Shown here: positions 3,279 to 63,401 of the stretch, piece by piece
Position numbering within the stretch: the first letter of the stretch is position 1
Layout: each line of letters starts with the position of its first letter
Assembly (NCBI GenBank): GCA_963693285.1
Contig: OY848918.1
Coordinates: forward strand, 1,619,501-1,683,500
Direction: 5' to 3'
Origin: Xestospongia muta
Lineage: Eukaryota > Porifera > Demospongiae > Haplosclerida > Petrosiidae
DNA length: 64,000 bases
Program-made: the position numbers and the translations under genes
The notes under the pieces: model-generated
What the model was told of the DNA's origin: nothing
Database searches by the model: none
The model's input: the letters and a program-made list of their open reading frames with translations, nothing else

Positions 3279-5679
3279 TTATATTATAATATTTTCATAG
3301 TCAGCAGTACATGTCCTACTAGGTTGTACTGTTATATATGATGGATTAGTCTCTAACTCCACTCTTCTACTTCTCATCTCTAATCTGTGTACTATGTAAG
3401 GATTATAATATGAACTATATAAAGTTATAATATGAACATAGTTACCTTCATCATATGCAGGATTATGAGTGATAGTTTGTTGATCAACTATAGAAGAAAC
3501 CACTTGGAATAATTAATACCATCTCACTCTCTCACCTCCAACTTCATGTAGTTGATGTTTCTTCTTCAAATATACAATACTACTGACAACTAGACATATC
3601 ACTATTATGACAATTACTACTACCACACTAACGGTACTAGTGGTAATGAGGAGAATAGTCTTGTCAGTGGCTGTATATATAAATTAAAATTACTTAAAAA
3701 TATTTAATCCATACTTACATGATACCCTTGAACTTATAGAAGATTCAAGATGTTCTACAGATGTAGTTATGCTTCTATAATCACTACCTATCATCTCAGT
3801 TGATGTAGTACCTAATAAATTGTTATAGAACAATACAAAACAGTACAATATAATACTTACTGGTAATAATAGTCTTAGTAGGAGATGATGGTAGTAAGAT
3901 ATATTCCAGTACTTGAGGGTACACAACAGATGGGTTAGTTATAATAGTACCATCTATTATATCATGAGCTGTCACAGTATAGTTACCACTAACTGGTAGA
4001 GTTATATACTGGTATAGTGTACTCTCCTCTATACTGAATTTAGTCATATTAATAGACTTGACAGTTCCTTTAGAAGACTGTCTAAATATCACATGACACC
4101 CATCAGCAGTAGATCTCTCAGCAAACCTACACTCTACAACAACTGATCCATTATCAGAGTAGTACTGTAGAGTGAGTCCTTGAACACGATAGGTTGCTAT
4201 AGTGATAAGAAGAATATGGAAGATATATTAATTAATAACCTACAAAATATCACATGATCTTCATTCTTTGTGTTTTTAAATAAATCCATAATATATGCAG
4301 TAAATGTATAATTGAGAGAAGGATGTAGTCCAGTTATATTATAATATATTGTTGTTTCATTAATATCAGTAACATTGTTAATATAAACATGATGATAGGT
4401 TGTTATCTCATTGTTAACATTATCCTTTGTAATACCATATATGGTAAGAGTGCATAGATGAGGGAAACCTTTGATCTAGAAAATACACATTCATAAGACA
4501 ACATATCATTATGTGCTTAGTCCTTACATTAATAGGAAATCGAACTTGTATTACAGGACTGTTTCCAGATTCATTAAATGTCACAACATAGCTAGATATG
4601 TTGATAGTATAGTCTGGTAATATAGTAATATGTAATATAAATGGAGAATTAGTTAGAGCTTACTTCCAGAAATTTCTTTTGAAATAGTTGTAGCAAGTGA
4701 CTTGTACTGGTCAATAAAAGCTGTGATACTTGCAGTGTAAATAATACAAACTATGTAGTTACTAGGTAACAGGTAGGAGGTATCAGTTGTATTATCATCT
4801 ATTATTATAGAGCCATATTGATTTACAATATAAACATGATACGTTGTAATACTTCCTTGTGGAATATCATTAGAGTAAAATGATGGAGGAGACCAGGTTA
4901 ACAATGAAGCAATGTCAGTAAAGTCTAAATGAAGTTGCTCAACTGATGAAATACCTATAGACTTGTCAATCAGTAATACTGAAATCATGTAGAGTAGTTG
5001 GTTTGATAGTAAAATGCTAGAATTAATTAGTTATATTTGGCTCAAGTCACTAGTTTATATATTTTGTGTTTTAAAAATTATAAATTTCTTGTTTGCTTTG
5101 TTAACTACATAATGATTTGAACTAGTTCATAATGCATCAATTCATTTTATAATATTACATTATTAGATAACTTGCTAAGACTACATGCTATATACCTCAT
5201 TGTACTTAACAAAATTAATTGCTAATATTTGAATGAATTGTTTTATTTTGTGCCATTGGTTATTTACCTTTAACTGTTAAAATAGTTCCTTTCTGTTTAA
5301 AGCCAGATGGATCTAAACTGATCACAGTGCATTTAATACTTATCCCATTATTAATAGGTAGTGCTCTTATAGTTAGTACTGATGACCACACATCAACTGA
5401 TATATTGTTAGTAGTTACTGATATCTCTCTGTCTTGATTACTAGTATCAGTTAGTGAATTACCCCCTACTGTCCATGACAGTATATCTCCAGTACCCTCA
5501 CAGGTAAAATTAGCCAGTGTGTAAAGTAGAGTAGACACTGGTGAGGGAGCTATTGTGATCACAGCTGTAAAACAACATTAAGTACAATATAAATTTATAC
5601 ACAGCTTACCAACTCCATTTGCAAAGCTAGGTGTAAGAATAATTAGCATTAAAAAATTTTGCAAAATAATCTTATCCAT
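3279..5679 (-). CDS. A2: Ig/FN3 transmembrane receptor, short tail, intact (564 aa)
   Basis: The model has ten exons: 5610-5679, 5268-5564, 4664-4954, 4528-4613, 4244-4475, 3861-4196, 3719-3811, 3536-3670, 3446-3487 and 3279-3391. All have GT-AG borders, and the 1695 bases are open to a TAA. Residues 1-23 are a signal peptide and 24-122 an Ig domain (FTCEG, LSWTV, VLTIRALPI, SIKC). Residues 123-219 form FN3-1 (LTWSPP, then YHVYI) and 220-325 FN3-2. Residues 326-437 are domain X, 438-468 the stem, and 469-513 the membrane exon with a Val/Ile run followed by KKKH. Residues 514-564 are the cytoplasmic tail with NPAYDEV, NPSYITV and a terminal ADYENI. NPxY motifs can bind PTB domains and YxxI/V motifs SH2 domains; this is family knowledge, not shown here. 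Its 3' exons are identical to those of A3. The ligand is unknown; a surface recognition role is inferred. Confidence 0.85.
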
Positions 5680-6385
5680 TTTAATAAGGTACTTTCTTTA
5701 GACAGGACAGTAGAAAAATATAATCTAATGACTACATAAATTTCACTTTTTTACTTTCAAAACTTTAAAGAAATTTCAACTTGTTATGAAATAAGTACTG
5801 ATCAGTTGATTCAGTAGCAGTTGATCTCAGGTGTATTGATTTCATTATATCAAAATACATTTATCGCAAACTGTCTATTCAACGACAATATATTATACAA
5901 TAGTATTAACTACTGGTTTGTATATTGGTTCTATTATGACCAATTGTAGTTCATAACTACTGATAATAGCATATTGAACTCTAAACACTAAATATACTAA
6001 TAATTTATTAGAGAGGTGTGCTCTGTGCGACTGAGGAAAACCACTTAATTAAGAAAACTCCAACTGAGCATATTCAATATTGACTCTTTGTATTCTAGAG
6101 AGAGAGCCTGGTAGACTGGAATCAGTAGAACTCATAATTCTCTGAGGCTATTAGAAAGAAGACACTATCAGATGATATATGAGATATAATATAAATTACC
6201 ATAATAGCAATTTGAGGATGATCAAAATAGTCATTTAATAATATCCTTTCATATAGTGGTGGTCCTTCTGGTAATAACGGTAGTACTAACAGCTTAATTG
6301 CTGCCCGGAACTTACACTTCTTGTAGGTGGGGTTTTAGGACTTTTGTGACAATGTAATGATTAGTCATCTTGTGAACTAAGTGCC
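5680..6385. other. Intergenic region between A2 and B1
   Basis: It contains the A2 upstream flank. A block at about 5937-5985 (gaccaattgtagttcataac...agcatattgaact) recurs about 190-270 bases upstream of A5, A6 and A9. No coding exon is seen. Confidence 0.4.
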
Positions 6386-7353
6386 TCACAACAATCTCCT
6401 CTCTGATAACATGTGACTGATATTAGGATTGGGTATAAGACTGGTATCAGATCTAATGCTAAAACACAATAGAAATATCATATCATTACATATACTAAGT
6501 ATATATATAACTAGTTATCATAGACAGCAATTAAATACTTACTCAGGAGATGGTAGGTCATTACTTTGAGGAGCAGAGGTAACCTCATTGTTCTCTTGTC
6601 TTGTTACCATAGTGATAGATGAAGGAGGTGGTACAAATGATGGAGATGGTGTAGATGGTGTTATATCACTGTTTATACTAGATGGAGATATTTCATGTTG
6701 TAACTGATCTTGTAGTTGACTATCACCTCCTTCATATCTATAATACATATATCAACATGTAATGATCAGTTATAACTTACTCATTAGTAGGTTTACTTTG
6801 AAATGAATCAGTTCTCTTTAAAGTACCTAAATATATGATGTCATATATATGATGATGTCATAGTCACATGACCTACCACTGAGTTCCCAGTTCTTTCTCC
6901 TTCTCTTTCTCTTCTTAATACTATAATACACTACCAATATAACTAGTACTATTACTAACAATATGATCACTATATTAACTGCTATAGCTAGTGGAGAGAG
7001 ATGGAGAGAGATTATATAAATGTATTAGTCTATTATTTACATTATATACCAGGATCTCTCTGTATGCAGTGTATAACAATGTAATACAAGTAGTACTATC
7101 TCCTGATCCTGTTGTCATGGGAACTTTAAAACAGACAAGTTCACCATATGACATATCACATGACACTCACATGAAACAGATATCTCTCTAATACTATAAT
7201 ACATTGTACTAGTCACATCTGTAGATGTAGGTTGACTTTCGAGGGAGGAAAGACTTGTACTGTTGATATTGTTACAGCTGTACCAGATGAGTCTTTCTGT
7301 CCATTATTGTTAATATTAAATATATCACTACACACTGCATAAAAGATACTAGT

Positions 7354-7393
<40 letters not shown>

Positions 7394-8789: not shown

Positions 8790-11674
8790 TTATATTATAA
8801 TATTTTCATAGTCAGTAGTACATGTCCTACTAGGTTGTACAGTTATATATGATGGATTACTCTCTAACTCCACTCTTCTACTCATCTCTAATCTGTGTAC
8901 TATGTAAGGATCATAATATGAACTATATAAAGTTATAATATGAACATAGTTACCTTCATCATATGCAGGATTATGAGTGATAGTTTGTTGATCAACTATA
9001 GAAGAAACCACTTGGAATAATTAATACCATCTCACTCTCTCACCTCCAACTTCATGTAGTTGATGTTTCTTCTTCAAATATACAATACTACTGACAACTA
9101 GACATATCACTATTATGACAATTACTACTACCACACTAACGGTACTAGTGGTAATGAGGAGAATAGTCTTGTCAGTGGCTGTATATATAAATTAAAATTA
9201 CTTAAAAATATTTAATCCATACTTACATGATACCCTTGAACTTATAGAAGATTCAAGATGTTCTACAGATGTAGTTATGCTTCTATAATCACTACCTATC
9301 ATCTCAGTTGATGTAGTACCTAATAAATTGTTATAGAACAATACAAAACAGTACAATATAATACTTACTGGTAATAATAGTCTTAGTAGGAGATGATGGT
9401 AGTAAGATATATTCCAGTACTTGAGGGTACACAACAGATGGGTTAGTTATAATAGTACCATCTATTATATCATGAGCTGTCACAGTATAGTTACCACTAA
9501 CTGGTAGAGTTATATACTGGTATAGTGTACTCTCCTCTATACTGAATTTAGTCATATTAATAGACTTGACAGTTCCTTTAGAAGACTGTCTAAATATCAC
9601 ATGACACCCATCAGCAGTAGATCTCTCAGCAAACCTACACTCTACAACAACTGATCCATTATCAGAGTAGTACTGTAGAGTGAGTCCTTGAACACGATAG
9701 GTTGCTATAGTGATAAGAAGAATATGGAAGATAATAAATAACATCTCACTCTCTCACCTCCAACCTCATGTAGTTGATGTTTCTTCTTCAAATATACAAT
9801 ACTACTAACAACTAGACATATCACTATTATGACAATTACTACTACCACACTAACTGTACTAGTGGCAATGAGGAGAATAGTCTTGTTAGTAGCTGTATAC
9901 ATAAATTGAAAATACATTAAAATATTTAATACACACTTACTTGACATTCTAGAATTAAAAGAAGATTCAGAAAGTTCTACAGATGTAATCATGTTCACAT
10001 TTTCACTAGCTATTTTTTAACAATACACAATAGTCAGTATATACTACTTACTGGTAGGAACAATAGTCTCATTAGGAGATGATAGTAGTAAGATATACTC
10101 CAGTACTTGAGGGTACACAACAGATGGGTTAGTTATAATAGTACCATCTACTATATCATGAGCTGTCACAGTATAGTTACCACTAACTGGTAGAGTTGTA
10201 TACTGGTATACTGTACTCTCCTCTATACTGGATTTAGTTATATTAATAGACTTCACAGTTCCTTTAGAAGACTCTCTAAACATCACACGACATCCATCAG
10301 CAGTAGATCTCTCAGCAAACCTACACTCTACAACAACTGATCCATTATCAGAGTAGTACTGTAGAGTGAGTCCTTGAACATGATAGGTTGCTTTCATTAA
10401 GGAAACATCATTGATTATATTTTCATCCAACTTATTAACTCACTGAACATGATGTAAGTTTGTTTCTTTTCTTTGTTGATACTGTTTGTAATGTATGTAG
10501 TAAAGTTGTACTTCATAAAAGGTTTCAGATCAGTTATAGTATAATAGTATATGGACATCTTTTGGTCACTGTTAGTAATATTAATAGTAAAATAACAACA
10601 ATTTGTTATAGTATTATTCTCTTTAGTGTTTCCAATCAGAAAACTATTACATAGCATAGGATCACTATCAACCTAGAAATTGATACACATTAGAAAAGAT
10701 ACTTTGTTAATTCACTTGCCATTATAATAAAAGTCACATTGAAGCTGTTAGTAACTTCATCAAAAATTACAGAATGATATTGTATGTTAATATTATAATC
10801 TATAATTAATATTAAAAACATACAATTTTATAATAATTCTACTGACCTCCACTAAACTCATCTTGTGCAATAGCATTGTTAGAACCATATCCTCCACTAT
10901 GAGCTATAACAGTAGCAGTGTAAATATCACAGACTGTGAGGTTATATAACTCATAAGATGTATCATTAGTGATATCATTATATAGTAACTGGCCATGTTG
11001 GTTCTCTATATAAATGTGATATGATAGTGGATAGTTTTCATGTGGATGAGACCAGGTCAACCAGTTTGAAGAACTGGTAACATTAAATGTGAACTGGAGG
11101 TTTTCTACTGGTGTAATACCTGTTGAATAATAAATGATAAACTATTATTATAGAAACTATATACCTTTAACTATTAAAGTAGATCCTCTTGATATAATAT
11201 TAAAGTTATGACCAATTACATTACATCCAATATCTATCCCATCATTAATAGGTAGTGCTCTTATAGTTAGTACTGATGACCACACATCAACTGATATATT
11301 GTTAGTAGTTACTGATATCTCTCTGTACTGTTTGATGGTATCAGTGAGAGAACTACCTTCTACTGTCCAAAATAGTACATTTGCCATACCCTCACAGGTG
11401 AAGTTAGCCAGTGTGTAAAGTGATGTAGTAACTGATGAAGGAGCTACTGTGATGTTATCTGTATATATAATAATAAATGACTTTATTAGCTGTAATAATT
11501 ATAGAAGTTGTATATTATTATGATAATTATGTTATTGAGCAAAAACATTTACTGCAAGACAACTCAATCACTCATATATTTACCAGCAGCGTCTGTATCT
11601 TTTGAAGTGAGCAGAAGACTTCCTAATACAACTGTAACGAGCGTTAGTATTTCTTGACAGTCTTTGTCAGTCAT
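8790..11674 (-). CDS. A3: Ig/FN3 receptor with a duplicated domain X-stem-membrane module
   Basis: The 5' exons are 11584-11674 (signal peptide beginning MTDKD), 11165-11458 (Ig), 10847-11119 (FN3-1), 10720-10799 and 10444-10672 (FN3-2). Two 3' modules follow. Module a is X 10052-10390, stem 9941-10009 and membrane 9758-9892. Module b is X 9369-9704, stem 9227-9319, membrane 9044-9178 and tail exons 8954-8995 and 8790-8899. With module b only, the model is 1683 bases, open, 560 aa. Every module exon is phase 1-1, and the 53-base gap between membrane a and X b has good splice sites. Full inclusion would therefore also stay in frame but would give two membrane passes and place X b inside the cell. 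Alternative use of a and b is more plausible. The linker exon has a GC rather than GT donor at 10718-10719. The tail motifs are the same as in A2. Confidence 0.8.
8792..9732 (-). repeat. Segmental duplicate of the A2 3' module
   Basis: Positions 8915-9732 match 3407-4224 at a constant offset of 5508 with no difference that I can see over about 818 bases, introns included. The match weakens to the left, with a few substitutions and a 3-base deletion. It stops abruptly to the right at the intron before X. This is a recent duplication or gene conversion. Confidence 0.9.
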
Positions 11675-14575: not shown

Positions 14576-17233
14576 TCAACCAGAGTCAATGACATCACTA
14601 ACAGGTCTAATATTGTTAGTATTTGGTGGTGATCTTACTGCTGAATAAATCAAATAAATTACATTATAATTTGTTATGGAATATCTTACAAAAACGCTTA
14701 ATCAAACCAGGTACTGTAGAAGCTGCCAATTCATGTGATGTTTGATCAATATTAGACTCTACATGATATCCTAAGTCATCTTCAGGTTGCTCCTGCAATA
14801 AGGATTTTAAATGACATGTCATTAACACAATATTCTTTAAAATACATAATAATAATACTAATAGTACTAATTACTATTAATAATATTAATAAAACATTAT
14901 TTCCTCAACTCCTCGCAACCAAAATTAAAGTTTATATTTAGTCATGATTTTTGTAACTTATTCAATGCTTACTTTATCAATTGTTTGTAATTCTGAATGT
15001 GAATCTTCAACAGATGTAATTTGTGAAGAATGAAGTTGAAATGTAGTTTCATGTAACTATAAAATATTACATAGTCACTTCAGTTACTAATAAACTTAAG
15101 ATTGTTAGTTTAAGGCTGATACTAACAGTATACAGTACAAATCTTGATATTAACATTATTTACATAAGAATGTAAGAATTAAAATAAAGTTGTATTGTAT
15201 AGGAAGTTACCTGAATACCTTCTTTGGAATAATTATGAGACATACTTATTGAACTACTATTGTCAACTGACCTATTAAAAGTAATGGTACTATTAAAAAG
15301 TCATATTAAAAACGTACTTGTTTTGTTTAGGAGGTAAATAATCTTTCTGAAGTATCTCTATTTAAGAAACCAATATAAGTTATTTAATTAATATATATTT
15401 GCCTACTTCTTGTCTTCAGCTTTTTTGTAACGATGTAAAGAATAACAAATACCACCAATATTACTAATAATACCAATAGAACCAGAAGTACTATTGTTGA
15501 TACCACTACGTCCACATCAAGGCTTCTTGCATCTATTAGTAATAAGTAAAATATTATATGTATTAAGTGTACCTGGTTCCTCTGAAGATGGTGAAACTAA
15601 AAGTATCTTTATAACAGAGGTACTAGTAACAGCATTGATCAGATTTAATGCTGAGCCTAGTAAGATATTATGTTAATATAAATATACACACTTCTTACTG
15701 AAAAATTTAATGGTCTCAATAGGAGATGATAGTTGTAAGATATACTCTAGTACTTGAGGGTACACAACAGATGGATTAGTTATAATAGTACCATCTACTA
15801 TATCATGAGCTGTCACAGTATAGTTACTACTAACTGGTAGAGTTATATACTGGTATACTGTACTCTCCTCTATACTGGATTTAGTTATACTAATAGACTT
15901 CACAGTTCCTTTAGAAGACTCTCTAAATATCACATGACATCCATCAGCAGTAGATCTCTCAGCAAACCTACACCCTACAACAACTGATCCATTATCAGAG
16001 TAGTACTGTAGAGTGAGTCCTTGAACATGATAGGTTGCTATAGTGATAATTATAGTGAATTACATCAATCAAAAATACTATACTCACTAAATGATGACTC
16101 ATTCTTTGTTTTAGAGTTACTAAAATAATCCAGTACATTAGCAATGAACACACAGTTCAGATGAGGACCAATATTTGAAGCATCATAGTAAAGACTAATG
16201 TTTGATAATGGATCTGGACTCCACACATTTATATGAGTATGTTTTATTTCTGTTCCATTCTGTAATGATGAGATCTCTCTAGTGATCCCTACTATAGTAC
16301 TGTTACATATCCTAGGATAACTTATAACCTATCATATATAATAATAAATCATGTATTAGTAATGTTGTTAACTTACATTAAGTTGAAATTGTATATCAAA
16401 AGAATTATTATGTTCATTAAAGATGACCTCATGATTTGGTAAGATAATAACATTGTACTCTATAATAACAAGTTAAATGGGCATTAAATAGGAACATACC
16501 TCCACTATACCTCCTTTGTATTGTAGTATTACTAGAACTATATTGTCCACTATGAGCTATAACAGTAGCAGTGTAAATATCACAGACTGTGAGGTTATAT
16601 AACTCATAAGATGTATCCTCAGTGATATCATTATATAGTAGCTGGCCATGTTGGTTCTTTATATAAATGTGATATGATATCACAGAGTTTACAAAGGAAA
16701 ATAATGGAGGAGACCAGGTTAACAAATTTGAACTGGTGTGATTAAAATTAAACTGAAGGCTTTCCACTGAAGTGATACCTGTCATTGTATGAAGTCATGT
16801 ATATGATACAGCATTCTGCTTCAAAAGCTAACCTTTAACTGTCAAAGTAGCTCCTTTAGATATAAACTTATTTCGGCCTACTACAACACATCCAACACTT
16901 ATCCCATTGTTTATAGGTAGTGCTCTTATAGTTAGTACTGATGACCACAAATCAACTGATATATTGTTAGTAGTTACTGATATCTCTCTGTCTTGATTAC
17001 TGGGATCAGTGAGGGAATTACCCCCTACAGTCCATGATAGTCTATTTCCTGTACCTTTACAAGTAAAGTTAACAAAAACATACACTAGAACAGATTCTGA
17101 TTTGGGAGCTTCTGTGATATTAACTATATAAAAGAAAAAACATCTCACAAACCATTTTCTGTTGTCGTCGTCGTTATTATTTACCAAAACCATCTGCAAA
17201 ACTGCTGAGCAAAAAGCAAAATAGAATCGACAT
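14576..17233 (-). CDS. A4: Ig/FN3 receptor with a distinct medium-length tail, intact (614 aa)
   Basis: Exons are 17185-17233 (signal peptide MSILFCFLLSSFADGFG), 16833-17123 (Ig), 16500-16778 (FN3-1), 16377-16459, 16088-16328 (FN3-2), 15699-16037 (domain X), 15573-15656 (stem) and 15407-15532 (membrane, then KKLKTR). The tail exons are 15318-15357, 15211-15271, 14973-15056, 14690-14792 and 14576-14640. The 1845 bases stay open to TGA. The ectodomain is typical of the family, but the membrane and tail exons match neither the short nor the long type. Tail Tyr sites include KDYLPP, HNYSKEG and LGYHVE; none is a full ITIM. In domain X the usual VECR is VGCR. A 15-bp inverted repeat lies just upstream of the start. 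The role is inferred as a surface receptor with different signalling from its neighbours. Confidence 0.85.
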
Positions 17234-21400: not shown

Positions 21401-23190
21401 TCATCAACAATATAACCATAGCAACTAGTATACCAGATGTCAAATAGATATTTCCTAAATCTATAAATAATTTTCAATGTGACCTAACATATATATTATT
21501 TAACTTACCATTAGGTTCACCAGAATTCATTATACCACTACTAGTACTAGTAATGTTACTGACCAGTGAGACTGTCTCATCACTTGATGTTATACCTGGT
21601 AAAGTATTATAAGACAAAGTATATAAAAAAAGTCTATAGGTAGAAGTAATAATCTCAGTAGGAGATGGTAGTAGTACAAAATACTCCAGTACTTGAGGGT
21701 ACACAACAGATGGGTTAGTTATGATAGTATCATCTACTATATCATGAGCTGTCACAGTATAGTTACCACTAACTGGTAGAGTTATATATTGGTATACTAT
21801 ACTCTCCTCTATGATGGATTTAGTTATATTAATAGACTTCACAGTTTCTTTAGAAGACTCTCTAAATATCACATGACATCCATCAGCAGTAGATCTCTCA
21901 GCAAACCTACACTCTACAACAACTGATCCATTATCAGAGTAGTACTGTAGAATGAGTACTTGGACATGGTAGGTTGCTATATTGGTGATAAAAGTATTAA
22001 TTTTAATTAAAAAAACTCACTAAAGAATGATTCATTCCTTGTTTTAGACATATTAAAATAATCCAGTATATCAGCAATGAAGATATAGTTCAGTTGAAGA
22101 CTTATATTTGACACAGTATAATTAACAGTTATTGATTTATATTCTAAAGAAGAATGAATATATTTTTTATTATGTCCAGTTTTTGTTCTATTCAATGTGT
22201 CCTCTCTTGTAATACCCAGTAATGTAATGTTACAAAGTCTAGGATAACCTGTAACCTTTAATACCACATAACACATCATATAATGGTAATATCATTAACT
22301 TACAATAACATGAAATTCTACATTAATAGAATTATTATATTCATTAAAGATAACATCATGATCAGGTGAGATCATAACATAGTACTCTGTAATTCAGTTT
22401 AGTTCAAAATGAGAATGAAATAGTAAACATACCTCCATTGTACTGCCTTTGTATAGTAATATTACTAGAACTATATTCTCCACTATGAGCTATTACTGTA
22501 GCAATGTAAATATCACAGACTTTGAGGTTATATAACTCATGAGATGTATCCTTAGTAATATTATTATATAGTAACTGGCCATGTTGGTTCTCTATATAAA
22601 TATGATATGATATAATAGAGTTTTCAGATGAAAATAATGGAGGAGACCAGGTCAACCAGCTTGAACAACTGATAAAACTAAAATTGAGTTGAAGGATTTC
22701 TACTTGTGAAATACCTGTGCATTGTATGAAGTGACAATAAGCTATCAATTTCTAACCTTTAACTGTGAAAGTAGCTCCTTTAGCCACAAAATCAAACTTT
22801 TGACCAAAGACAATACATCCAACACTTATCCCATCATTAATAGGTAGTGCTCTTATAGTTAGTACTGATGACCACACATCAACTGATATATTGTTAGTAG
22901 TTACTGATATCTCTCTGTCTTGATTACTGGGATCAGTGAGTGAATTACCCTGTACTGTCCATGATAGCTCAGTTCCTATACCCTCACATGTAAAATTAGC
23001 CAGTGTGTTAAGTGAACTTGTAACTGATGAAGGAGCTACTGTGATCACAGCTATAAATGAACATATGAGTATACATTGACATAATACATATATTGTATTA
23101 GTAGAACTTAACTTACATACCAGCTTTATTTACAGAACAAGGTAAGACATTAGCCATAATGAGAATGTTTCTTAATATGATTTCAGCCAT
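18497..23190 (-). CDS. A5: Ig/FN3 receptor, long ITIM-like tail, nonsense codon in a skippable tail exon
   Basis: Exons are 23121-23190 (signal peptide MAEIILRN type), 22757-23050 (Ig), 22433-22714 (FN3-1), 22304-22386, 22021-22255 (FN3-2), 21509-21976 (X and stem in one exon) and 21323-21460 (membrane, then RRRKRP). The tail exons are 21232-21271, 21110-21182, 20530-20826, 19689-19829, 19361-19642, 19221-19313, 19019-19166, 18897-18965 and 18497-18840. Exon 20530-20826 has TAA at 20572-20574 where A9 has AAA, giving a 645-aa protein. The exon is 297 bases, phase 0-0; skipping it would give 919 aa. All later exons are still open and hold SHYVEV (ITIM-like), TQYADI and, before the nonsense, NYEDL. 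A9 is its closest long-tail relative; the Ig exon is nearly the same as in A6. Confidence 0.75.
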
Positions 23191-23640: not shown

Positions 23641-23688
23641 GTCTTAACTGGATAGTCAAGTAATTAATATAGATAATAATATAGGATG

Positions 23689-43200: not shown

Positions 43201-43215
43201 ACAATCACAAAGAGA

Positions 43216-49571: not shown

Positions 49572-52500
49572 TTACTTATAAGATAGCTTATGTCGATTGT
49601 GGTTGTCATATGATATCTTTGGATAGTACAAATTATTGGAACGGGTAACTACGACCTCATTCTTAACAAATTGTGGAGGAGCACAAACCAATTCAGGTAA
49701 AGAGTTATCCAATATAGATCTTTCATCAATAAGATCTAGCTCGTTATCTTCAATCACACAATCAGCTGACATACTACTACTTTGATGATAATTTGATGTA
49801 ACTAGTTCAGGCTTAGCGTCAAACTGATGAAATGAGCAGATTGGTTCATCTTGATATAAACTAACACTAAATCCTCCGCGAGTTTCATCATAATTTTCCT
49901 TTGTAACTGAGTTTTGTAACTTGTTGTTAACTTAACATTGAAAAACAGATAATATTACTCATAATATAACTAACTTACCAAAAGAACCAGAAATATTACG
50001 TTTGTCAAAGATAGGGCTAGGACTGGGATGGTCATAATCTGTACCTATACAAAAAACAGGAAACATATAATACTGTATAGCTGGTTTTATCAGTGGATGT
50101 AAAATTTTGTCAGAAAATTTACATGACATTTATTTGTGTTTACTTCCTGTCTTCTTTGTTTAATTTATACTGTGTAAATTTTGTAAGACTTAATTTTTGT
50201 ACATTGGAGGCTCCATGAATATTAAATTTCAACAAAAATGGCTATGTTATATTTTACTATTACCATTACAGTAGGGTGTCAATGGATTGATGATCAGTGA
50301 AGTACACTCATTATTTTGAACTGTGATCGGATCTGAAACAGTAGTTTTGATAGAGCTATCAAGTGATCTTGATTCTTCACACTAAAATATAAAAATTTTC
50401 CTCTGCAGTTTCTTTGTATAAAAAAATTAAATTCATACTTGACTTTTTATTATAGATCCAGAATACATAACAGTCTCCTCTTCTCTTATAACATGAGACA
50501 CTGCAATACTGTCTTCTGATATCTATAACAGTACCACTAATAATAATAATGTATTATTAATATCTATGTTATTACTGTATTATGATGTCCACTAATATCA
50601 CTGTACTGTATTGGAATGTCAATAATGTGTAGACCTATTGGACAAGGCAAAGGAAATGTCACTTTGACATATCGAGATGCACTACTTTCTCCTCTTGGGA
50701 CATCTTCAATATAACTTCCTAAGGTGACTGATGTTGTTCTTTCTTCTACAACAGAACTTGTCATATCACCAGACATTGATATAGCACTGTCAGTATCATG
50801 ACCTGGATATGTTGACTTATGTGTGGTTGTTATTGGTTTAGCAAATGAACCACTATGATCCTATGAGATGAGGATTTCAACTTATTTATTATTTAACACT
50901 TACTTACCATTTGTTGTATGAAAGAGCCTGAGATATCTTGGTCAGTAGCATTCTCACTTAAAGGTGTTTCTTGAACATATTGTGTTGTAGATATATCATC
51001 ACTCTCAGCCTGTAGTAAAAACAGTTAATCATATTTATGACTATTAATAATGCACTTTCAAGTAATAAAGACTTAAGTATGAGTATGTCCATTGATTAAA
51101 TGAACAGTTTCATCATTAATTAACCAAAAGTGAGGTAAGTGCAGTAATGGTAAGGTCATTGCACATAAATAGCAGAATAGTCAGTTCTAAGTGAAAAGTC
51201 AGCAACATCATAATTATAAGTGGTATTTTTAGCTGAGTCACTCTTACCTTGTCTACATCTTTTGTCCATCCCTTCACTAAGATTGTTCCAACTATATTTA
51301 ATTGGTAATTAGTAGTAAAAGGGACAAAAAATTAAACATCTATCAGTAGACAATATGTAGTAATCAGTATAATTCTATGGGATCCTTTAAATTAACCAAC
51401 TGTACTTGGTTCATATTTTGAATAGGTTTATCCATCATACCACAACATTATTTAATATTATATTATTTAATGTCATCCACATACATTGTTAGATGATGAT
51501 AATTCATTTGTTGGTGCTTCAAACTCAAGTGTAACATGAGACACATCCTTCTTATGTGATAATAGACTATGTTCATTTTCAGACGTGGTAAGCGAGAGTG
51601 CTTGAAAGGTAGGTGGAGCTTGATCTTGAGGTGAAATAGGGAGTGAAGGTGAAGATTTTGCTTGGTCAGGAAAACATACAGGTGACTCTGGGTTTTGTCT
51701 TCTCACTTTATGTGACTATAAAAAAACATATGTAATGGAACAATTATATATATATATATATCAGAGCACAATGACAATGTCTTCTCAAAATAGTGACACT
51801 ACACGATAATCGTTTATCATTTAACATTAAAAGCAAATTGACAATAATCCTCAACACAGCATACTATTCAAAGTCATCCACTTACACTATTAGGTGATGC
51901 TTCAAACTCTAGTATAAGAAACATTTCCTTCTTACTTGATAATATATCATACTTTGTTTCATAAAAAGGGTTATTAGTAGAAGGTTGATTTTCATTACTA
52001 ATGTAGGTAATGTAGGTAATGATAATATCACAAGTTTGATAATATATCATTAACATACTTTCGAATATCATTTTCTTCTATTCCAGCTGTATGTTATTGA
52101 AAATGTAATGTATAATATGACATATTATTGAATAATAACTTCACCCACAATGATTAAAAGTCTTTGCTTGCTTTTTCCTCCTCCTCCTCTTGACATAACA
52201 CATTATTGGTATCACAATACACAATATAACTTCTACAACTAGTATAACTACTACTATTACAATAATTATTGTCTGATTGAAGCCTATTGAATAAATAATC
52301 AAATATGAACTAAAATATTTAACTTACCACCAGACACTTCATTAGTAGGTTCTACAAGTGTCATTATATCAGTTGTATTAATAATGTCAGTGATTAGAGG
52401 AATAAAACTATCTCTAATTGAAGTACCTAGTAAAATGTAATGTAATAAGATGATATGAAAAATAACCTACTGGTAATAATAATAGTCTCAGTAGGAGATG

Positions 52501-53665
52501 GTAGTAATAAGATATACTCCAGTACTTGAGGATACATAACAGATGGGTTAGTTATAATAGTACCATCTACTATATCATGAGCTGTCACAGTATAGTTACC
52601 ACTAACTGGTAGAGTTATATACTGGTATACTGTACTCTTCTCTATACTGGATTTAGTTATATTAATAGGCTTCACAATTCCTTTAGAAGACTCTCTAAAT
52701 ATCACATGACATCCATCAGCAGTAGATCTCTCAGCAAACCTACACTCTACAACAACTAATCCATTATCAGAGTAGTACTGTAGAGTGAGTCCTTGAACAT
52801 GATAGGTTGCTATGGTAAATAGATATCGTGTTATGTCAATCAGAATCATGTGCTTACTAAAATATGATTCATTCTTTACTTTGGAATTATTTAAATTATC
52901 CTGTATATCAGCAATAAAGAGGTAGTCCTTTTGAGGACCAATATTTCTTGCAATGTAATTAACTGTCATTGACTGACATTTGCTTGATGAACATACTATA
53001 TCTTTATGAGAATGTTCTGTTCTATTTAGTTGTAAATTTGTTTCTCTCGTAATACCAAGTAATGTACTATTACAAAGATTAGGATAACCTGTAACCTATA
53101 TATGTAATATATACAGTTATGAATGCTCAAACTGATATTACTTACCATGACTTTGAACTGGACATCAAAGTAGCCACTTTCTTTGTTGCAAGTAACCAAA
53201 TGATCAGGTAAGATAATACAATAATTCTCTATTATAACACTCAGTTTAAATGAGTACAAAAATGTTAACATACTTCCATTATTCTCCCTTTGGATAGTAG
53301 CATTACTAGAACTATATTCTCCACTATGAGCTATAACAGTAGCAGTGTAAATATTACAGACTGTGAGGTTATATAACTCATAAGATGTATCCTCAGTGAT
53401 ATCATTATATAGTAACTGGCCATGTTGATCCTCTATATAAACGCAATATGATATTAGAGTGTTCTCAGAAGAAAATATTGGAGGAGACCAGTTTAACCAG
53501 AGAGAATAGGTGGTGTTGAAATTAATTACATAGTTTTTTACTAATGTGATACCTGTCATGAGTAAGATATAAACTATATAACTAGCCAATATGTCTGCAT
53601 ATGTGAATAAAAGGTGAATTGTATTGTACTTTTACTACTTAATGTAAGAATTTTTAATTATGGTG

Positions 53666-53731
<66 letters not shown>

Positions 53732-55309
53732 TATATAATAGTGTTAGTGTTTGTTCATAGTTAATAGCATATTATGTACTTACATTTTTGATATCACTTA
53801 AAACATATCGAAATTCTTTTTAAAATATTCCTTTCTAAACCTTAATAAAGTTGTAGATCAATTAAATTTTTAAGATTCAAATAATTTAATTCAAACTATA
53901 TATTAATCATCAGTTAAATATACAAAAAACTACAAAAACTATAATTTCATTTATCTTGTTATTTTAAGTCAAGTTTTTATTACTAATGTACTACTGTAGT
54001 ACATTAGTAATAAAAACAATGTTATGTTTACATTTACATCATACTAAGTTTACTATATGCAACCTGTATAACAATATATTGGTTAAATCAACAAATCAAT
54101 TTTTACAGTGCAGATATTAAAATATTTGAAAAGAAATATCTCTTCAGCTCTACTATAACTCAAACATTTAAAGGTGATAACATGAATAAAGCAAATGATC
54201 ACAAAATTTCTTAAATGAAGTCAGAATATTTATTTTTTATATGACCTGAGCTTATCACGCATGCTCAAAAAGAATGATTAATAATTTTGAAGAAAACATA
54301 TTACTTATTTATATCTCCTCATGAATAAATATACTCACAAGTTTGCATTATACTTATATATATAGAAATTATTAAGTGAATATGCTATGAGGATGCTATG
54401 CGGAATGTTCTCAAACAGCTTGAACCACATCTATTTTTATCCTACAACCACCATGAGAGGGACATACAATTTTGTGTTAGCCTGGGTAGACGAGATGATA
54501 GAGCAATTTGATAATTCAGCTACTTCCAGTTTTCAACTTTAGAATGACTTCTAACAAAGGTAGATGTCTTTATAGTTGAAAAAACTTGATAATGGCAAGT
54601 AAATGTTCAAATAAGCCTATTAACTATATTATGAAGTCATTTTGAAAGTATCATAATGCATAGATTGAATGTGGCAGCCATTGTTCCCAGTGGCATCTCT
54701 AAATATTGAGTCTATTGTGCTCAATGGTATTGTAAGCAGGAAAATTTTGGGAAGTTTGTGATTTGCATGCTGGTTCAGCAAATTTTTATTACAATTGTCA
54801 AATTCTCATGAATAATTATCAGTATTCAATAAATTACCAAACCATATGGAAGAAATTTTTTGCAAAATTTCATCCTTAAGAAATTAACTATAGACTAACC
54901 TTTAACAGTTAAAGTTGTTCCTCTTCTATCGATAGAAAAATCTTGGCCAAAAACAAAGCATTGAACAATTATCCCATCATTAATAGGTAGTGCTCTTATA
55001 GTTAGTACTGATGACCACACATCAACTGATATATTGTTAGTAGTTACTGATATCTCTCTGTATTGTTTGATGGTATCAGTGAGTGAATTACCCCCTACTG
55101 TCCAAAATAATACATCTCCTGTACCCTGACATGTGAAGTTAGCCACTACGTAAAGTAGACCAGTAACTGGGGAAGGAGCTTCCGTTATCACAGCTGTGTG
55201 AAAAAAAAATAACATTAAGATTAATACTACTGATATGCTTCAACCTACCAGGATCCGCCTCTCTTGTGAGAAGTAGACTTAAAAAATGAACAAGTAGTAT
55301 ACCAGCCAT
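49572..55309 (-). CDS. A10: Ig/FN3 receptor with the longest ITIM-like tail, intact (962 aa)
   Basis: Exons are 55249-55309 (signal peptide), 54900-55193 (Ig), 53274-53552 (FN3-1), 53146-53228, 52858-53095 (FN3-2), 52471-52809 (X), 52328-52426 (stem) and 52145-52283 (membrane, then RRRRKK). The tail exons are 51886-51997, 51485-51715, 50908-51009, 50576-50860, 50439-50522, 50264-50381, 49979-50044 and 49572-49930. The 2889 bases stay open to TAA. The tail of about 490 residues includes NPFYETKYDIL, SRYVKV and IQYSDI. The last two match the ITIM pattern and lie where A9 has SHYVEV and SQYADI. The C-terminal exon resembles the last exon of A5. The intron between Ig and FN3-1 is 1347 bases instead of about 45, and it holds an AT tract and a 21-bp perfect palindrome. 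Confidence 0.85.
53669..53737. repeat. (AT)n microsatellite in the A10 intron
   Basis: About 69 bases of almost pure AT, interrupted once by a G. Confidence 0.95.
53973..54017. repeat. Perfect 21-bp palindrome with a 3-base loop
   Basis: The arm gtttttattactaatgtact a (53973-53993) is followed by ctg and its exact complement (53997-54017). It sits in the enlarged A10 intron, probably part of an inserted foldback element or a hairpin-forming site. Confidence 0.85.
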
Positions 55310-56351: not shown

Positions 56352-58557
56352 TTATATTATAATATTTTCATAGTCAGCAGTACATGTCCTACTAGGTTGT
56401 ACTGTTATATATGATGGATTACTCTCTAACTCCATTCTTCTACTTCTCATCTCTAATCTGTGTACTATGTAAGGATCATAATATGAACTATATAAAGTTA
56501 TAATGTGAACATAGTTACCTTCATCATATGCAGGATTATGAGTGATAGTTTGTTGATCAACTATAGAAGAAACCTTCTAAAATAATTAATAGTTTCTCAC
56601 TCTCTCACCTCCAACTTCATATAGTTGATGTTTCTTCTTCAAATATACATTACCACTAACAACTAGACATATCACTATTATGACAATTACTACTACCACA
56701 CTAACTGTACTAGTGGTAATGAGGAAAATAGTCTTATCAGTAGCTGTATAGATAATTTAAATTACATAAAATATTTAATATATACTTACATGATACCCTT
56801 CAATTTAAAGAAGATTCAAGAAGTTCTATAGATGTGGTTATGCTCCTATAATCACTACCTATCATCTCAATTGATGTAGTACCTAATAAATTATTATAGA
56901 ACAATACAAACAGTACAATATACTACTTACAGATAATAATATTAGTCTCAGTAGGAGATGGTAGTAGTAAGATATACTCCAGTACTTGACAAGTAGTAAT
57001 AAATAAGTAGTAATAAGTAGTAAGACATACTCCAATATCCAATATTTAAGGGTACCTAACAGATGGGTTAGTTATGATAGTACCATCTACTACATCATGA
57101 GCTGTCACAGTATAGTTACCACTAACTGATAGAGTTATATACTGGTATACTGTACTCTCCACTATACTGGATTACAAATATTAACAGTTTCTTCAGAAGA
57201 TTCTCTAAATATCACATAACATCCATCAGCAGTAGATCTCTCAGCAAACCTACACTCTACAACAACTGATCCATTATCAGAGTAGTACTGTAGAGTGAGT
57301 TCTTGAACATGGTAGGTTGCTTTGAGAAGAAAAATCCATATATTAAAATTATTTATAACCCTTTAATTAACTTACTGAATATGTTATAATCTTGATTTTT
57401 AATTTTGTAAAGACTACTTGTAATGTATACAGTAAAATTGAAAATCATAAGAGGACTTAGGTCAGTTATAGTATAGTAAGTGATCATCTCTTTGTTAGTG
57501 TCAGTAACATTGATAGTGAGAAAATTATAAACCATTTTCTCATTAGGTTTTACAAACAGTACACAATTACAAAGTTTAAGATAATAACCTTTTATCTAGA
57601 AAGTAATACACACAATATAATATCAACAGTTTATTCACTTACCATTATACTAAATATCACATTAAAGCTGTTGTCCCTTTCATCAAATATTACAGTATGA
57701 TTCCATATACCAATAGTATAATCTACATTAAAATTGAACTAATGACCTTTAGTAATTCTACTGACCTCCAGTATATTCCTCTTGAGTAGTAACATTACTA
57801 GAACTATATTCTCCACTGTGAGCTATAACAGTAGCAGTGTAAATATCACAAACTGTGAGGTTATATAATTCATAAGATGTATCATTAGTGATATCATTAT
57901 ATAGTAACTGGCCATGTTGGTTCTCTATATAAATGTGATGTGATAATGGATAGTTCTCAAATGGATGGGACCATGTTGACCAGCCTGACAAAGTGGTAAG
58001 GCTAAAAGTAAGATGGATGTTCTCTACTGGTATGATACCTGTGATTGAATGAGGAGATGACATTGATTACAAATACAGAAACTAACCTTGAACAGTTAAA
58101 GTAGCTCCTTTTGATACAAAGTCAAAGTTTTGACCAAACACAGTACATCCAATACCTATCCCATCATTAATAGGTAGTGCTCTTATAGTTAGTACTGATG
58201 ACCACACATCAACTGATATATTGTTAGTAGTTACTGATATCTCTCTGTCTTGATTACTGGGATCAGTGAGTGGATTATTCTGTACTGTCCAAAACAAATC
58301 ACTACCTGTACCCTCACAGGTAAAGTTAGCCAGTGTGTAAAGTAAAGTGTTCATTGATAAAGGAGGTACTGTGATTATTGCTGTAATATAAAATTTGTGT
58401 ATGAAAAGTGAATATAAAGTTACTACTTAGTTTTATTAGGTATCAAAGCATACAATATTGTTAATCATTTACCAACAGCATCTGTATCTCTAAAAGTGAG
58501 AGCAAGACTTCCTAATATAACCGTAACGAGCATTAGCTGCCAATCTTTGTCAGTCAT
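56352..58557 (-). pseudogene. A11: short-tail family A copy with a disrupted domain X
   Basis: Signal peptide 58473-58557 (MTDKDWQLMLVTVILGSLAL), Ig 58087-58380, FN3-1 57766-58038, linker about 57645-57724 and FN3-2 57376-57595 are open and close to A7. Domain X (from 57319) has a 10-base deletion near 57170 that shifts the frame. An inserted AT/GTA-rich stretch of about 60 bases at 56985-57045 interrupts the end of X. In the ancestral frame a TAA at 57046-57048 replaces part of VVYPQVLE. Stem, membrane (about 56610-56745) and tail exons (stop at 56352-56354) remain recognisable and open. The ectodomain could still be made as a truncated, possibly secreted Ig-FN3-FN3 protein, which I cannot confirm. 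Confidence 0.75.
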
Positions 58558-59525: not shown

Positions 59526-60945
59526 TAGAGAAATTAGAGAGCAGTCTCAGAGACAAAGTAATAATTATTATCTGATCCAAAATGAGGTTCTATGAAAGAT
59601 TCTTCTCTCATGTTGAAATCACTAGTATCTGGAACAGGATCTTATGGTTGTTTGTCATCAAATGATGATGTTGTTAGTGGGAGGGGTAACATATCTGCTG
59701 GAGATAATGTATCATCAGTAACCACATCTGATAGAATATCATTTGTGATTCAGCAAGTTCTGATCTTGTAGTACTTGATGTAGTCTGTTCTCATTAAGTA
59801 AAGAGAACAGAGAATGACTCTCTATTAAAGATCAATTAATGTCACAATGTCATAAAGCTACTTAATCATATTGAATTGGTACATATATGAGGTGAAGTCA
59901 AACAGACATTATCAATCTACCGTTCAATACTTATATGTACTTTATCAAGTAATGTGGTTTTATAGGCAAAAACCAATAAATAATAAACTTAACCACTAAA
60001 ATTTATTAAAATAAAATTTTTATTTAATTTAGTTAGTATATACTAAAATATTTTCTAACTTACTAAATATATTTTATATCATTCTCTAGCCCAATTATGT
60101 GCACCATGTAGTAAACAATTTCTTGTACAAATCAATTATTAATATTATGCAATAGCTTTTATAATTTTAGCTTTCAAGTTAATGAGCTACTTACTCATAG
60201 GACACTCCTACACTACTACCACTATTTAGTTGAAATCAACTAAACATATGAATAATTATTTCATGATGTATACCCCTAATATTGTGTTCTATGATGAATT
60301 GACTATATCTATATTGATAAGTAGTCTATAAATGACACTAATGAAGTAACAAGTTTTATAAACTAATTACTATCCATATTAGTATGTTATAATAATAAAC
60401 ACATCATATAATAACTTAACATCATCGGATAGTGCTGGCACTATGACAACAGTAATATCACTAGGAGTAGTAGCAGTAGATGCATCCTCGTTGCTTGGTA
60501 ATGATGGATTATATTCTGTACATGTGCTAGTAGTGCTGTTAACAAAAGACTATAGAAAAGATTGAAGATGGCATTTTTCATTTTAAAAGAAAGTTGAGGT
60601 TATCTAGTGTAGCAAATTGACAATCTACATTTCTAGTCTGGCTGCCCAGACTCAACCCCCTAATTATTGAACGACGGACGGAGGAAGTGAGTAAATTACC
60701 CTCTACTGTCCATGACAGTGCACCTCCTTTACCCTCACATGTAAAGTTAACCAGTGTGTAAAGTGGAGCAGACACTGATGAGGAAGCTGCTGTGATCACA
60801 GCTGTATTAAAAAAAGACAATTTTAAACTGTTTTTATCATATATTTTATTATCATTTACCAGTAGCATCTGTTCCTCCCGAAGTTAATAAAAAACACTCC
60901 AGGAAAATCAAAAAAAGCACTAATCTACTTCAATTTGCCATGCAG
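59526..60945 (-). pseudogene. A12a: remnant of a family A gene (signal and partial Ig exon, two tail exons)
   Basis: 60700-60803 encodes the beginning of the Ig domain (AVITAASSSVSAPLYTLVNF, then TCEGKG, LSWTVEGN). It then runs into foreign sequence (60600-60700) where the conserved Ig core should be. The upstream exon near 60861-60945 begins ATGGCAAAT and then meets TGA. Downstream, 60430-60545 reads a plausible tail exon (EYNPSLPSNEDAS). 59526-59760 reads a Ser/Asp-rich tail end (FGSDNNYYFVSETAL and stop) with an in-frame TAA at about 59642. FN3, X and membrane exons are gone. Confidence 0.6.
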
Positions 60946-61109
60946 CTGTTTTTTATCAAGTTCATGAGATAAGCTTAAATCCATGTAGTTTTCTGCATTC
61001 CTTAATGCTATTTATGTTTAAATATTTTAGTATTAACATTGCTTTAAGTATTGATAGGAAAGAAGGTGTGTGAGAGATAACCATATATTTTGTTTTTTGA
61101 GAGTTGATA

Positions 61110-61870
61110 GTTATGTGATGAGAGGAGATTCAAGACAAGATTAGATCAATATTATTATATTCAACAGATTGCATTGAAGTAGTGGTAGGTATTTCTTGAT
61201 AGAGGAGTATGTCATCAGTACAAAGGATAATATTAGCAGATGAGAGAAGAGATAAGTCATCTAAGTCATTGATGTAAATAATAAATAAGAGTGGCTCAAG
61301 AATAGAGCCTTGCAAGATGCTTAGATAAACATGACAAATGACTATGTTGAATTCTACCTTTGAGGTAACTATGAAACCAATTAACAAGAAGAGGAGATCG
61401 AAAAAAATGGAACAAACAGTATTGTTAGCATTAAGGATGAGAACCAGGACGTTAGTGTGGCCAACAAAGCAGTTTCAATAGAAAAGCACAGACAAAAACC
61501 AAATTGCTGATTTGATAGTATATTGTGAGAAGAACAGAAATCATATAAATAATTAAGAATGTGGTGCTCAAGAGTCTTGCTTATAATGGAAAGGAGAGAG
61601 ATAGGGTGATAATTGGAAGAAGATGAAGGTTTTGATTTGGGAATAGAACAACATGTGAGTTTTCCTGTCAGATAGGAAAGTACCTATGGTGATTGAGGGG
61701 TTGAAGATAAGAGACAAATGGAATGAAATGGTATGAGCAATCTGGTGAAGCATTAACAAAGAAATACGATCAGGACTAGTAACAATAATATTAGAAATGC
61801 AAAAATTTTTTACAAATTTCATCAGTACAAAGAAGATCAGAAGGACAGACAAGAAAAAATGTGAGGTAGT
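61110..61870 (-). mobile_element. LINE (non-LTR retrotransposon) reverse transcriptase fragment
   Basis: On the minus strand, 61568-61852 resembles the RT finger region (SPDRISLLMLHQIA...FNPSITIGTFLSDRK). 61130-61387 carries the palm motifs QGSILEPLLFIIYINDL and TDDILLYQE, the latter a changed (Y/F)xDD box. Frame changes separate the pieces, and no endonuclease or 3' end is recognised. This is a dead truncated copy between A12a and A12. Confidence 0.75.
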
Positions 61871-62203
61871 TAAGAGTTTGAGGGGGAGAGAGGGACTATT
61901 GATTTATTAAAGTATGAAGAAAAGTATTGATTCAACACATCTGCTTTTTATGTAGGTAAAGTAACATAATACATTGAGACAGACTGATAGTCATGATATA
62001 TTTCTATTAAGCAGGAATGACTGATATATACCAAAATGTGCTCTCAGCAGCAAAGATGCACGATATAACAATACCATGGTAAGTAATATACCTTATGTTA
62101 GAACCACCCATTGACAACATTACTAAATTAATTGTGTTTTAAGTCCTTGAAGGGAAGACCAACAGGTGTTATGTGTCCAAACATAATTATATACTCATTT
62201 TGT

Positions 62204-63401
62204 TTACAATACAATTTCTTCATAATTGCATGTATTTCTTGTTAACTGTACTGTTGTATATGATGGATTAGTCTCTAACTCTACTCCTCTTCTCCTCATC
62301 TCAAATCTGTGTACTATAATTAATACAATTTTATGACTAAACCAAGAATAAACTAATAATTAAACATACCTTCATCATATGATGGATTATGACTTACAGC
62401 TAATTCATTATCTATTGCAAAGTGTTGTACAATAGGTAATGACTTCTATTTTCTCTTACTTTCAATCCGATGTTGTTGACTAATCTTCTTAAAATATACA
62501 GTAATACTAACTCCAGCTATTATCACTATTATAACTATTACAATAGTTATACCAATGCTTGTAAAGATCACCATGGCATCTGCGTAAAAAAGAGTGGATG
62601 CTATAAAATTATTTTTACATGATGTTCTGAGAGAAGGCTCAGTCATAGTGGTAGTTTCTCCATTTTTCATAGAACTAGTTTTGTTATCAATTGTTATATC
62701 ACTTGATGTAGTACCTGGTATGATAGAACAACACATTATTAATGGTCAATAACTGCTTACTGATAGTAATAACTGTCTCTGTAGGAGATGGTAGTGGTAA
62801 GATATACTCCAGTACTTGAGGGTACACAACAGATGGGTTAGTTATAATAGTACCATCTACTATATCATGAGCTGTCACAGTATAGTTACCACTAACTGGT
62901 AGAGTTATATACTGGTATACTCTACTCTCCTCTATACTGGATTTACTCATATTAATAGACTTCACAATTCCTTTAGAAGACTCTCTAAATATCACATGAC
63001 ATCCATCAGCAGTAGATCTCTCAGCAAACCTACACTCTACAACAACTGAACCATTATCAGAGTAGTACTGTAGAGTGAGTCCTTGAACATGGTAGGTTGC
63101 TATGGTAATTGATGAAGTGAGTCTCATATCAATCAAAGTACTATATTGTATACTCACTAAATGATGATTCATTCCTTTTTTTAGAGTTATTAAAATGATC
63201 CAATATATCAACAATAAAGGTATATCTCAATAGAGGATCAATATTTGATGTAGTATAGTTAACTGTGACTGACTGACAATCTTCTGATGAAAAACACATA
63301 ATATCTCTACAAGTGTATTCTATTTCGGTTCCATTTAGTAGTGAGTTATCATTCAAAATGCCCAGTAATGTGCTATTACATAGTCTAGGATAACCTGTTA
63401 T
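62204..63401 (-). CDS. A12: 3' half of a family A receptor with an unusual short tail (5' exons absent)
   Basis: Open exons: 63158-63401 (FN3-2, ITGYPRLC type), 62761-63099 (X), 62619-62714 (stem, TTTMTEPS), 62460-62579 (membrane, then FKKISQQHR), 62370-62411 and 62204-62313 (tail). Phases are consistent throughout and the stop is TAA at 62204-62206. The tail has SHNPSYDEV, NPSYTTV and NYEEIVL, parallel to A2 but diverged. Its tail intron is 56 bases, which fixes the acceptor used in the other short-tail copies. From 63402 to 64000 there is family B first-exon repeat and flank sequence but no FN3-1 or Ig exon. The gene is therefore either 5'-truncated, like A1, or its first exons lie beyond the window. 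Confidence 0.75.

Follow-up and report, generated by a model that had tools for sequence, protein, structure and literature searches.

Receptor gene copies in the window

A tandem cluster of genes for putative single-pass receptors, with one Ig domain, two FN3 domains and a further domain called X, lies in a 64 kb stretch of the Xestospongia muta genome (the window, C2:1,619,501-1,683,500, where C2 is contig OY848918.1 in a genome of 158 Mb in 28 contigs). Searching the window by tblastn with an X query found 13 domain-X exons, every one on the minus strand, 12 of them within 3279-63401 and one fragment just outside (~2287-2619), matching the thirteen same-strand exons of a preliminary description of this DNA. 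The X near 57 kb contains a frameshift and a stop, which split it. The 12 unsplit copies are 89-96% identical to the query, which is a consensus made by eye, so that identities to it exceed pairwise ones both here and in the genome-wide tblastn search for this X. Since these 12 copies have E <= 2.3e-61, chance is excluded for the window X exons.

The exon order is Ig, FN3-1, FN3-2 (in two exons, 2a and 2b), X, linker, transmembrane (TM) exon and tail, with constant splice phases: Ig (1-1), FN3-1 (1-1), FN3-2a (1-0), FN3-2b (0-1) and X (1-1). This plan was derived from one copy and afterwards recovered in others. Eight window copies have Ig, FN3-1 and FN3-2b followed in order by an unsplit X, and for seven of them the modelled ectodomain splices at GT-AG sites and is free of stops (X at 3.9, 15.7, 21.6, 25.7, 29.6, 40 and 52.5 kb); in the eighth, at 10.4 kb, no FN3-2a exon satisfying the rule applied (AG acceptor, GT donor, 68-109 open bases) was found. 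The other copies, at 57, 34, 62.7, 9.4 and 2.3 kb, are either broken or incomplete. The number of complete models agrees with the seven counted previously, the copies not being paired one to one, and the remaining ones had also been described as broken or truncated.

In three genes (21.6, 25.7 and 40 kb), a putative signal exon is present, X continues in frame into the linker, and a TM helix with a basic run follows; these are the genes modelled that far. Tails were not spliced end to end, save the short tail of the 25.7 kb gene, whose model probably reads through a small intron, other copies carrying stops there. In Pfam, the window ectodomain gave a weak Ig match (I-set, E 0.035, below the cut-off) and fn3 at E 1e-6, while the best match of the full window model was Amnionless at E 0.009, below its cut-off. 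Open frames and splice models support the family as a tandem birth-and-death set of predicted Ig-FN3-FN3-X single-pass receptors.

Transmembrane segments and tails

At least two tail designs occur in the family, as assigned by reading the sequences. The short type carries NPxY and YxxV/I tyrosines, in the order NPAY, NPSYITV and a C-terminal end of the YENI type, and the long type has many tyrosines across several exons. NPxY is a docking motif for PTB domains; six PTB (PID) exon matches were found in the genome. No charged residue was seen in the three TM helices read (21.6, 25.7 and 40 kb genes). In the vertebrate paired receptors (KIR, LILR and SIRP), a charged TM residue pairs with an adaptor. 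The analogy drawn earlier with these receptors holds for near-identical ectodomains on differing tails, which are also met in the window, but not for the charged-TM adaptor kind as regards the three helices read. The short tail has NPxY and no strict immunoreceptor tyrosine-based inhibitory motif.

Fold of domain X

Domain X is a seven-stranded sandwich whose structural neighbours are FN3 domains, including those of cytokine receptors and adhesion proteins. By sequence, no Pfam fn3 match was obtained for X up to E 1. An unknown fold is ruled out by the FN3-like structural neighbours. Class I cytokine receptors carry WSXWS in the membrane-proximal FN3 domain. In the window, WSTWS is found in two copies (29.6 and 57 kb) and only early in FN3-1, and membership of that class was ruled out by this misplacement.

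Module exchange between ectodomains and tails

Exchange was assessed by setting similarity in the 1.1 kb upstream of X against similarity in as much as 1.2 kb downstream (linker, TM and tail start) in 26 copies (325 pairs), two of 28 copies having been removed (the 9.4 kb extra X and the 2.3 kb fragment). Similarity in the ectodomain and downstream was unrelated (rho -0.003). Of the nine pairs scoring at least 900 in the ectodomain, six scored under 400 downstream; conversely, 900 was attained in the ectodomain by only 3 of the 24 pairs that scored at least 900 downstream. Ectodomain likeness does not predict likeness of the linker, TM and tail start.

The 25.7 kb gene is a chimera. Its identity to the long-tailed 21.6 kb gene is 0.89-0.99 over the stretch that begins ~1.35 kb before X and includes X, 0.84-0.89 in the 300 bp following X, and 0.31-0.48 from 600 bp past the X start onward. 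Over that last part, its identity to the 29.6 kb gene, short-tailed like the 25.7 kb gene itself, is 0.88-1.00. The 9.4 kb extra X is identical to the 3.9 kb copy over ~750 bp from its start, the DNA upstream being unrelated and the 5' identity edge, read from open frames, lying ~30 bp before X. The pair W_1628873/W_1629550 was discarded from the alignment as overlapping DNA. Birth and death of genes, shared ectodomains and tyrosine-bearing tails, all put forward in the preliminary description, are borne out by the copies, the chimera and the reading of the tails.

Concerted evolution of domain X

Fifty-five X copies were analysed: 12 from the window (the split X at 57 kb excluded), 25 from twenty 10 kb tiles (C2:1.11-1.43 Mb) and 18 from short loci picked for near-complete X and Ig. 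Of these 18, 15 come from block B (C2:2.87-3.09 Mb) or its vicinity and one from C3. The remote X relatives L016 and L046 were left out. In the 50 copies with sequence on both sides of X, median DNA identity per 35 bp segment was 0.50 immediately upstream of X, 0.89-0.97 within the exon, 0.73 where the segment straddles the 3' end and 0.56 past it. The median pairwise proportions of nonsynonymous and synonymous differences (pN/pS), which rest on non-independent pairs, were 0.066/0.101 for X (55 copies), 0.184/0.294 for Ig (41 copies), 0.270/0.365 for FN3-1 (46 copies) and 0.414/0.650 for FN3-2b (48 copies).

Ordinary protein constraint does not explain the likeness of X between copies, and homogenisation is favoured instead. 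Variation is near-equal over codon positions 1/2/3 (0.066/0.072/0.081), which together with the quiet synonymous sites rules out purifying selection at the protein level, and recent expansion alone is ruled out by introns beside X that are only ~50% identical. No positive selection was seen by pairwise pN/pS.

No correlation was seen between X distance and the distance in Ig or FN3 or along the map (rho 0.02-0.07, p 0.11-0.36). The variable Ig part, FN3-1 and FN3-2b intercorrelate (rho 0.31-0.38, p 0.003) and also correlate with position. Across bins with mean FN3-2b distance from 0.04 to 0.53, mean X distance stayed at 0.073-0.086 (48 copies, 1128 pairs). X was more diverged than FN3-2b in 48 of 52 close pairs, a result not used as proof since most close pairs are from block B, where FN3-2b is unusually alike. 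Close pairs in block B differ by 0.01-0.03 in FN3-2b codons 1-48 and by 0.2-0.34 in the introns adjacent to X, and FN3-2 may be homogenised there too.

Amino-acid identity of X is 86% within the genome, 58% within Amphimedon queenslandica and 41% between the two (range 30-52), and that of FN3-2b is 37%, 21% and 20%, respectively, for 15 of 16 A. queenslandica proteins (P0002 excluded; their FN3-2b is the stretch preceding X). From the X values, homogenisation seemingly ran separately in each lineage. On these sequence comparisons, X evolves in concert, apparently homogenised between copies, and gene conversion stopped at the diverged introns would be the simplest cause. In the Ig exon, a patch of ~30 codons (around DREISVTTNNISVDVWSSVLTIRALPINDG) has pS 0.06-0.12, against 0.24-0.60 in the flanking segments, and is perhaps a second homogenised tract.

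Genome-wide extent of the array

Genome counts were made by eye among the matches listed and refer to exons, not intact genes. For the X type of the window (X-A), the best 150 of 275 candidates were scored genome-wide by tblastn; ~105 of the matches listed are free of stops and span 90 or more of the 106 positions; one of these is on C3 and the others are on C2. Those on C2 occupy 1.115-1.866 Mb and 2.865-3.224 Mb, and the window is 64 kb out of these ~1.1 Mb. The cluster previously placed at 3279..63401 is real, but its limits were set by the window, the whole array extending over several megabases.

Two other types share the stretch C2:3.65-5.47 Mb: X-B, with ~77 near-complete stop-free exons among the matches listed (52-100% identical to the query), and X-C, with ~70 among those listed (84-100% identical to the query), one of them on C14. 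X-B is less tight than X-A or X-C (52-87% to its query). X-A and X-B are ~30% identical, and X-B and X-C ~35%. The total is ~250 near-complete X exons of three types among the matches listed, nearly all on C2.

Clearly related Ig and FN3-1 exons are borne by L046, an X-B locus, and L050, an X-C locus. The Ig exon of this group has at least 150 matches, nearly all on C2. The match at C2:4,928,922 (94% identical to the query) precedes an X-C exon and that at 4,925,527 (91%) an X-B exon, each by ~1 kb. In C2:3.65-5.47 Mb (L046, L049 and L050), two receptor subfamilies are interleaved, with related Ig and FN3-1 and a different X (B or C). Distant Ig relatives, 25-34% identical, occur at C2:0.65-1.0 Mb. 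Many other FN3 exon clusters, apparently of other families, were seen on C5, C7, C9, C11 and C12 (best 150 of 2,606 candidates).

Relatives in Amphimedon queenslandica

A search of sponge proteomes with the ectodomain and X had been suggested in the preliminary description, and a homologous family was found in A. queenslandica. With the full window model (590 aa) as query, in a search that scored the 7,994 candidates sharing most words, the sole protein with E < 0.01 was LOC109585247 (32% identity, 83% of the query). LOC109585247 in turn retrieved itself and 15 others (P0001-P0016), all from A. queenslandica. The uncharacterised proteins of this species include LOC109585247, LOC109585260, LOC109585251, LOC109581525 and LOC109586865, and the first three presumably lie on one contig, all three being assigned to a contig of 86,552 bases.

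The order Ig-FN3-FN3-X-TM-tail is the same as in the window; Ig, FN3-1 and X were matched by profiles from this analysis and FN3-2b in only some of the 16 proteins, while the X sequence is the family's own. Like the two window designs, the tails are long (e.g., P0001 and P0009) or short with NPAY/YETV (P0007, P0014 and P0016), the short ones containing NNPAYGQ and VNPAYETV and ending in YETV or YEYV. P0001 gave no Pfam match and 0 PDB matches by sequence at E 1, and the predicted full-length structure of P0014 (mean pLDDT 48) was not used. Beyond single domains, no characterised family matched the window receptors in the Pfam, PDB and protein searches; strong homology to a characterised non-recognition family had been named earlier as counter-evidence. 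No prior description of the receptor family was found in the titles and abstract beginnings of the top-ranked literature matches, and the main text of an A. queenslandica graft transcriptome paper has 0 occurrences of 'immunoglobulin' or 'fibronectin'.

Features of the window

Table 1. Receptor copies and their predicted exons (positions within the window).
Feature	Position	Strand	Details
X exon fragment	2287..2619	-	Donor not found; no own upstream ectodomain; outside the span described earlier
3.9 kb gene, open ectodomain model	3282..5564	-	Ig 5268-5564; FN3-1 4664-4954; FN3-2a 4528-4613; FN3-2b 4244-4475; X 3861-4196
3.9 kb gene, 3' part	3282-3683	-	TM segment within 3516-3683; short NPxY tail 3282-3488
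9.4 kb extra X exon with TM and short tail	8793..9704	-	X 9369-9704; open frames and alignment
10.4 kb gene	9708..11458	-	Ig 11165-11458; FN3-1 10847-11119; FN3-2b 10444-10672; X 10052-10390; TM segment within 9708-10016
15.7 kb gene, open ectodomain model	15420..17123	-	Ig 16833-17123; FN3-1 16500-16778; FN3-2a 16377-16459; FN3-2b 16088-16328; X 15699-16037
15.7 kb gene, possible TM	near 15420-15494	-	Weak match
21.6 kb gene, open ectodomain model	18500..23190	-	Signal exon 23121-23190; Ig 22757-23050; FN3-1 22433-22714; FN3-2a 22304-22386; FN3-2b 22021-22255
21.6 kb gene, 3' part, long tyrosine-rich tail	~18500-21976	-	X and linker 21509-21976; TM 21323-21460; tail segments to ~18500
25.7 kb gene, open ectodomain model	25080..27211	-	Signal exon 27142-27211; Ig 26778-27071; FN3-1 26454-26735; FN3-2a 26325-26407; FN3-2b 26045-26276
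25.7 kb gene, 3' part, short tail	25080-26000	-	X and linker 25536-26000; TM 25338-25475; tail 25080-25292; chimera
29.6 kb gene, open ectodomain model, short tail	29060..31030	-	Ig 30737-31030; FN3-1 30416-30688; FN3-2a 30294-30373; FN3-2b 30031-30247; X 29636-29974; tail 29060-29266
34 kb broken copy	33800..35894	-	Ig exon not found; FN3-2b broken; X 34114-34452 intact
40 kb gene, open ectodomain model	36986..41554	-	Signal exon 41485-41554; Ig 41137-41430; FN3-1 40803-41084; FN3-2a 40674-40756; FN3-2b 40391-40625
40 kb gene, 3' part, long tail	~36986-40348	-	X and linker 39887-40348; TM 39695-39826; tail segments to ~36986
52.5 kb gene, open ectodomain model	49575..55193	-	Ig 54900-55193; FN3-1 53274-53552; FN3-2a 53146-53228; FN3-2b 52858-53095; X 52471-52809
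52.5 kb gene, 3' part, long-type tail	49575-52266	-	TM near 52153-52266; tail segments 50567-50860 and 49575-49931; tail ~40% identical to 21.6 kb tail
57 kb broken copy	56355..58380	-	Ig 58087-58380; FN3-1 57766-58038; X 56935-57319 (frameshift and stop); short tail 56355-56561
62.7 kb remnants	60605..63401	-	FN3-2b 63158-63401 and X 62761-63099 open; short-tail fragments 62207-62409; separate truncated Ig 60623-60801

An apparent second, small gene type lies between the receptor genes at 6500-7900, ~23900-24400 and 41900-42800. It combines a TM helix and a proline-rich tail with a domain judged X-like by eye from its SDNG..C pattern, and its tail portion is present three times. Repeated, retroelement-like open frames with protease-like and reverse-transcriptase-like pieces (by eye) lie inside the array at 44879-48700 and 61130-61900, and an open frame at 373-645 on the minus strand resembles a ubiquitin-specific protease fragment (CYASSVLQCL, by eye).

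Discussion

The array is best read as a germline-encoded complex of recognition receptors, probably diversified by modular exchange and conversion. This reading is preferred because the surface receptors form a large, clustered and pseudogene-bearing set with modular diversification and tyrosine tails. The genes would encode single-pass proteins with a putative signal peptide, Ig, FN3, FN3, a membrane-proximal X, TM and one of at least two tails. Frequent conversion between copies would keep X, and perhaps the Ig patch, alike, and unequal exchange in or near X would re-pair ectodomains with tails, X acting both as a constant stalk and as a homology tract for module exchange. The variable Ig segments and the FN3 domains would bind changing ligands (self variants, neighbours or microbes), and the tails would signal via tyrosine phosphorylation and docking of PTB or SH2 domains. 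The recognition role proposed in the preliminary description thus gains partial support from the size of the array, the modular exchange and the A. queenslandica family, while allorecognition itself stays conjectural.

Several observations weigh against this reading. Linkage disequilibrium within X is at background even below 10 bp, a pattern compatible with very short conversion tracts and, equally, with recurrent mutation. Transitions, chiefly C/T or G/A, account for 19 of the 21 common X variants, possibly through mutation bias or a deaminase. The identity edges fall exactly at exon borders, unlike freely placed conversion tracts, unless diverged introns halt the tracts. The Ig patch varies together with the remainder of Ig (rho 0.36) and is thus not decoupled. 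No excess of nonsynonymous change was seen in the 38 closest pairs (pooled pN/pS 0.50-0.70), and several copies are pseudogenes.

An innate repertoire directed at microbes or symbionts, comparable to the expanded sets of NLR or SRCR receptors and with no role in the alloresponse, is a tentative but quite possible alternative. The size of the family and its birth and death resemble expanded innate families; according to excerpts of the published accounts, sponges hold expanded NLR and SRCR sets (PMC7308585), and the zebrafish NLR-B30.2 family has hundreds of genes, mostly on one chromosome arm, with conversion differing by domain (PMC4852459), although these NLRs are intracellular and unrelated proteins. 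However, no domain known for microbial binding was found in the Pfam comparison of the window model. It is rather unlikely that the array is the sponge histocompatibility locus itself, with receptors that recognise allelic ligands or one another across individuals and determine whether these fuse or reject. Sponges reject foreign grafts precisely, and aggregation factors are the known candidates for this recognition; to our knowledge, no receptor system is established for it. The specificity of sponge grafts implies a polymorphic system, as far as the cited excerpt goes (PMC5450542), and the window family resembles the Hydractinia allorecognition complex, a large clustered family of single-pass immunoglobulin-superfamily receptors with many pseudogenes in the portions of the sources used (PMC11067881; PMC13119343). 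Against this, the two words sought in the main text of the graft transcriptome paper are absent. The window receptors, known from one assembly, also differ from Alr in having one Ig, two FN3 and X. Polymorphism and control of fusion are established in Hydractinia.

Adhesion or cytokine-like developmental receptors, expanded without a recognition role, are improbable. Ig and FN3 domains with a tyrosine tail are a common plan of adhesion proteins and receptors, and the fold neighbours of X point the same way, but so many fast-changing copies and pseudogenes would generally be unusual for such genes, and WSTWS is not in the membrane-proximal FN3. Constraint on the X nucleotides by an RNA or DNA element inside the exon, in place of conversion, would also leave synonymous and nonsynonymous sites quiet with edges matching the exon. 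This is very improbable, however: X is only 41% identical to that of A. queenslandica at the amino-acid level while copies within a species are more alike, and in the same genome X-A differs strongly from X-B, and X-B from X-C, yet X-A and X-C are each tight.

A fuller form of the recognition-receptor reading seems quite doubtful at present, namely that in a ~250-copy sponge complex the X exons are a few shared 'constant-region' pools (A, B and C) kept uniform by conversion, with exchange via X re-pairing ectodomains and tails in a germline modularity like that of variable and constant regions, and with strong candidacy for histocompatibility. If true, such modularity would exist in one of the earliest animal lineages. 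The family is itself a case of domain-by-domain concerted evolution in sponge receptors, comparable to that reported for fish NLRs; the excerpts cited above give as precedents domain-wise conversion in zebrafish NLRs (PMC4852459) and clustered immunoglobulin-superfamily recognition genes in Hydractinia. The array forms a delimited complex on one chromosome, is related to genes of the model sponge A. queenslandica and has the anatomy and evolution expected of recognition receptors, and graft genetics could therefore be tested directly against it.

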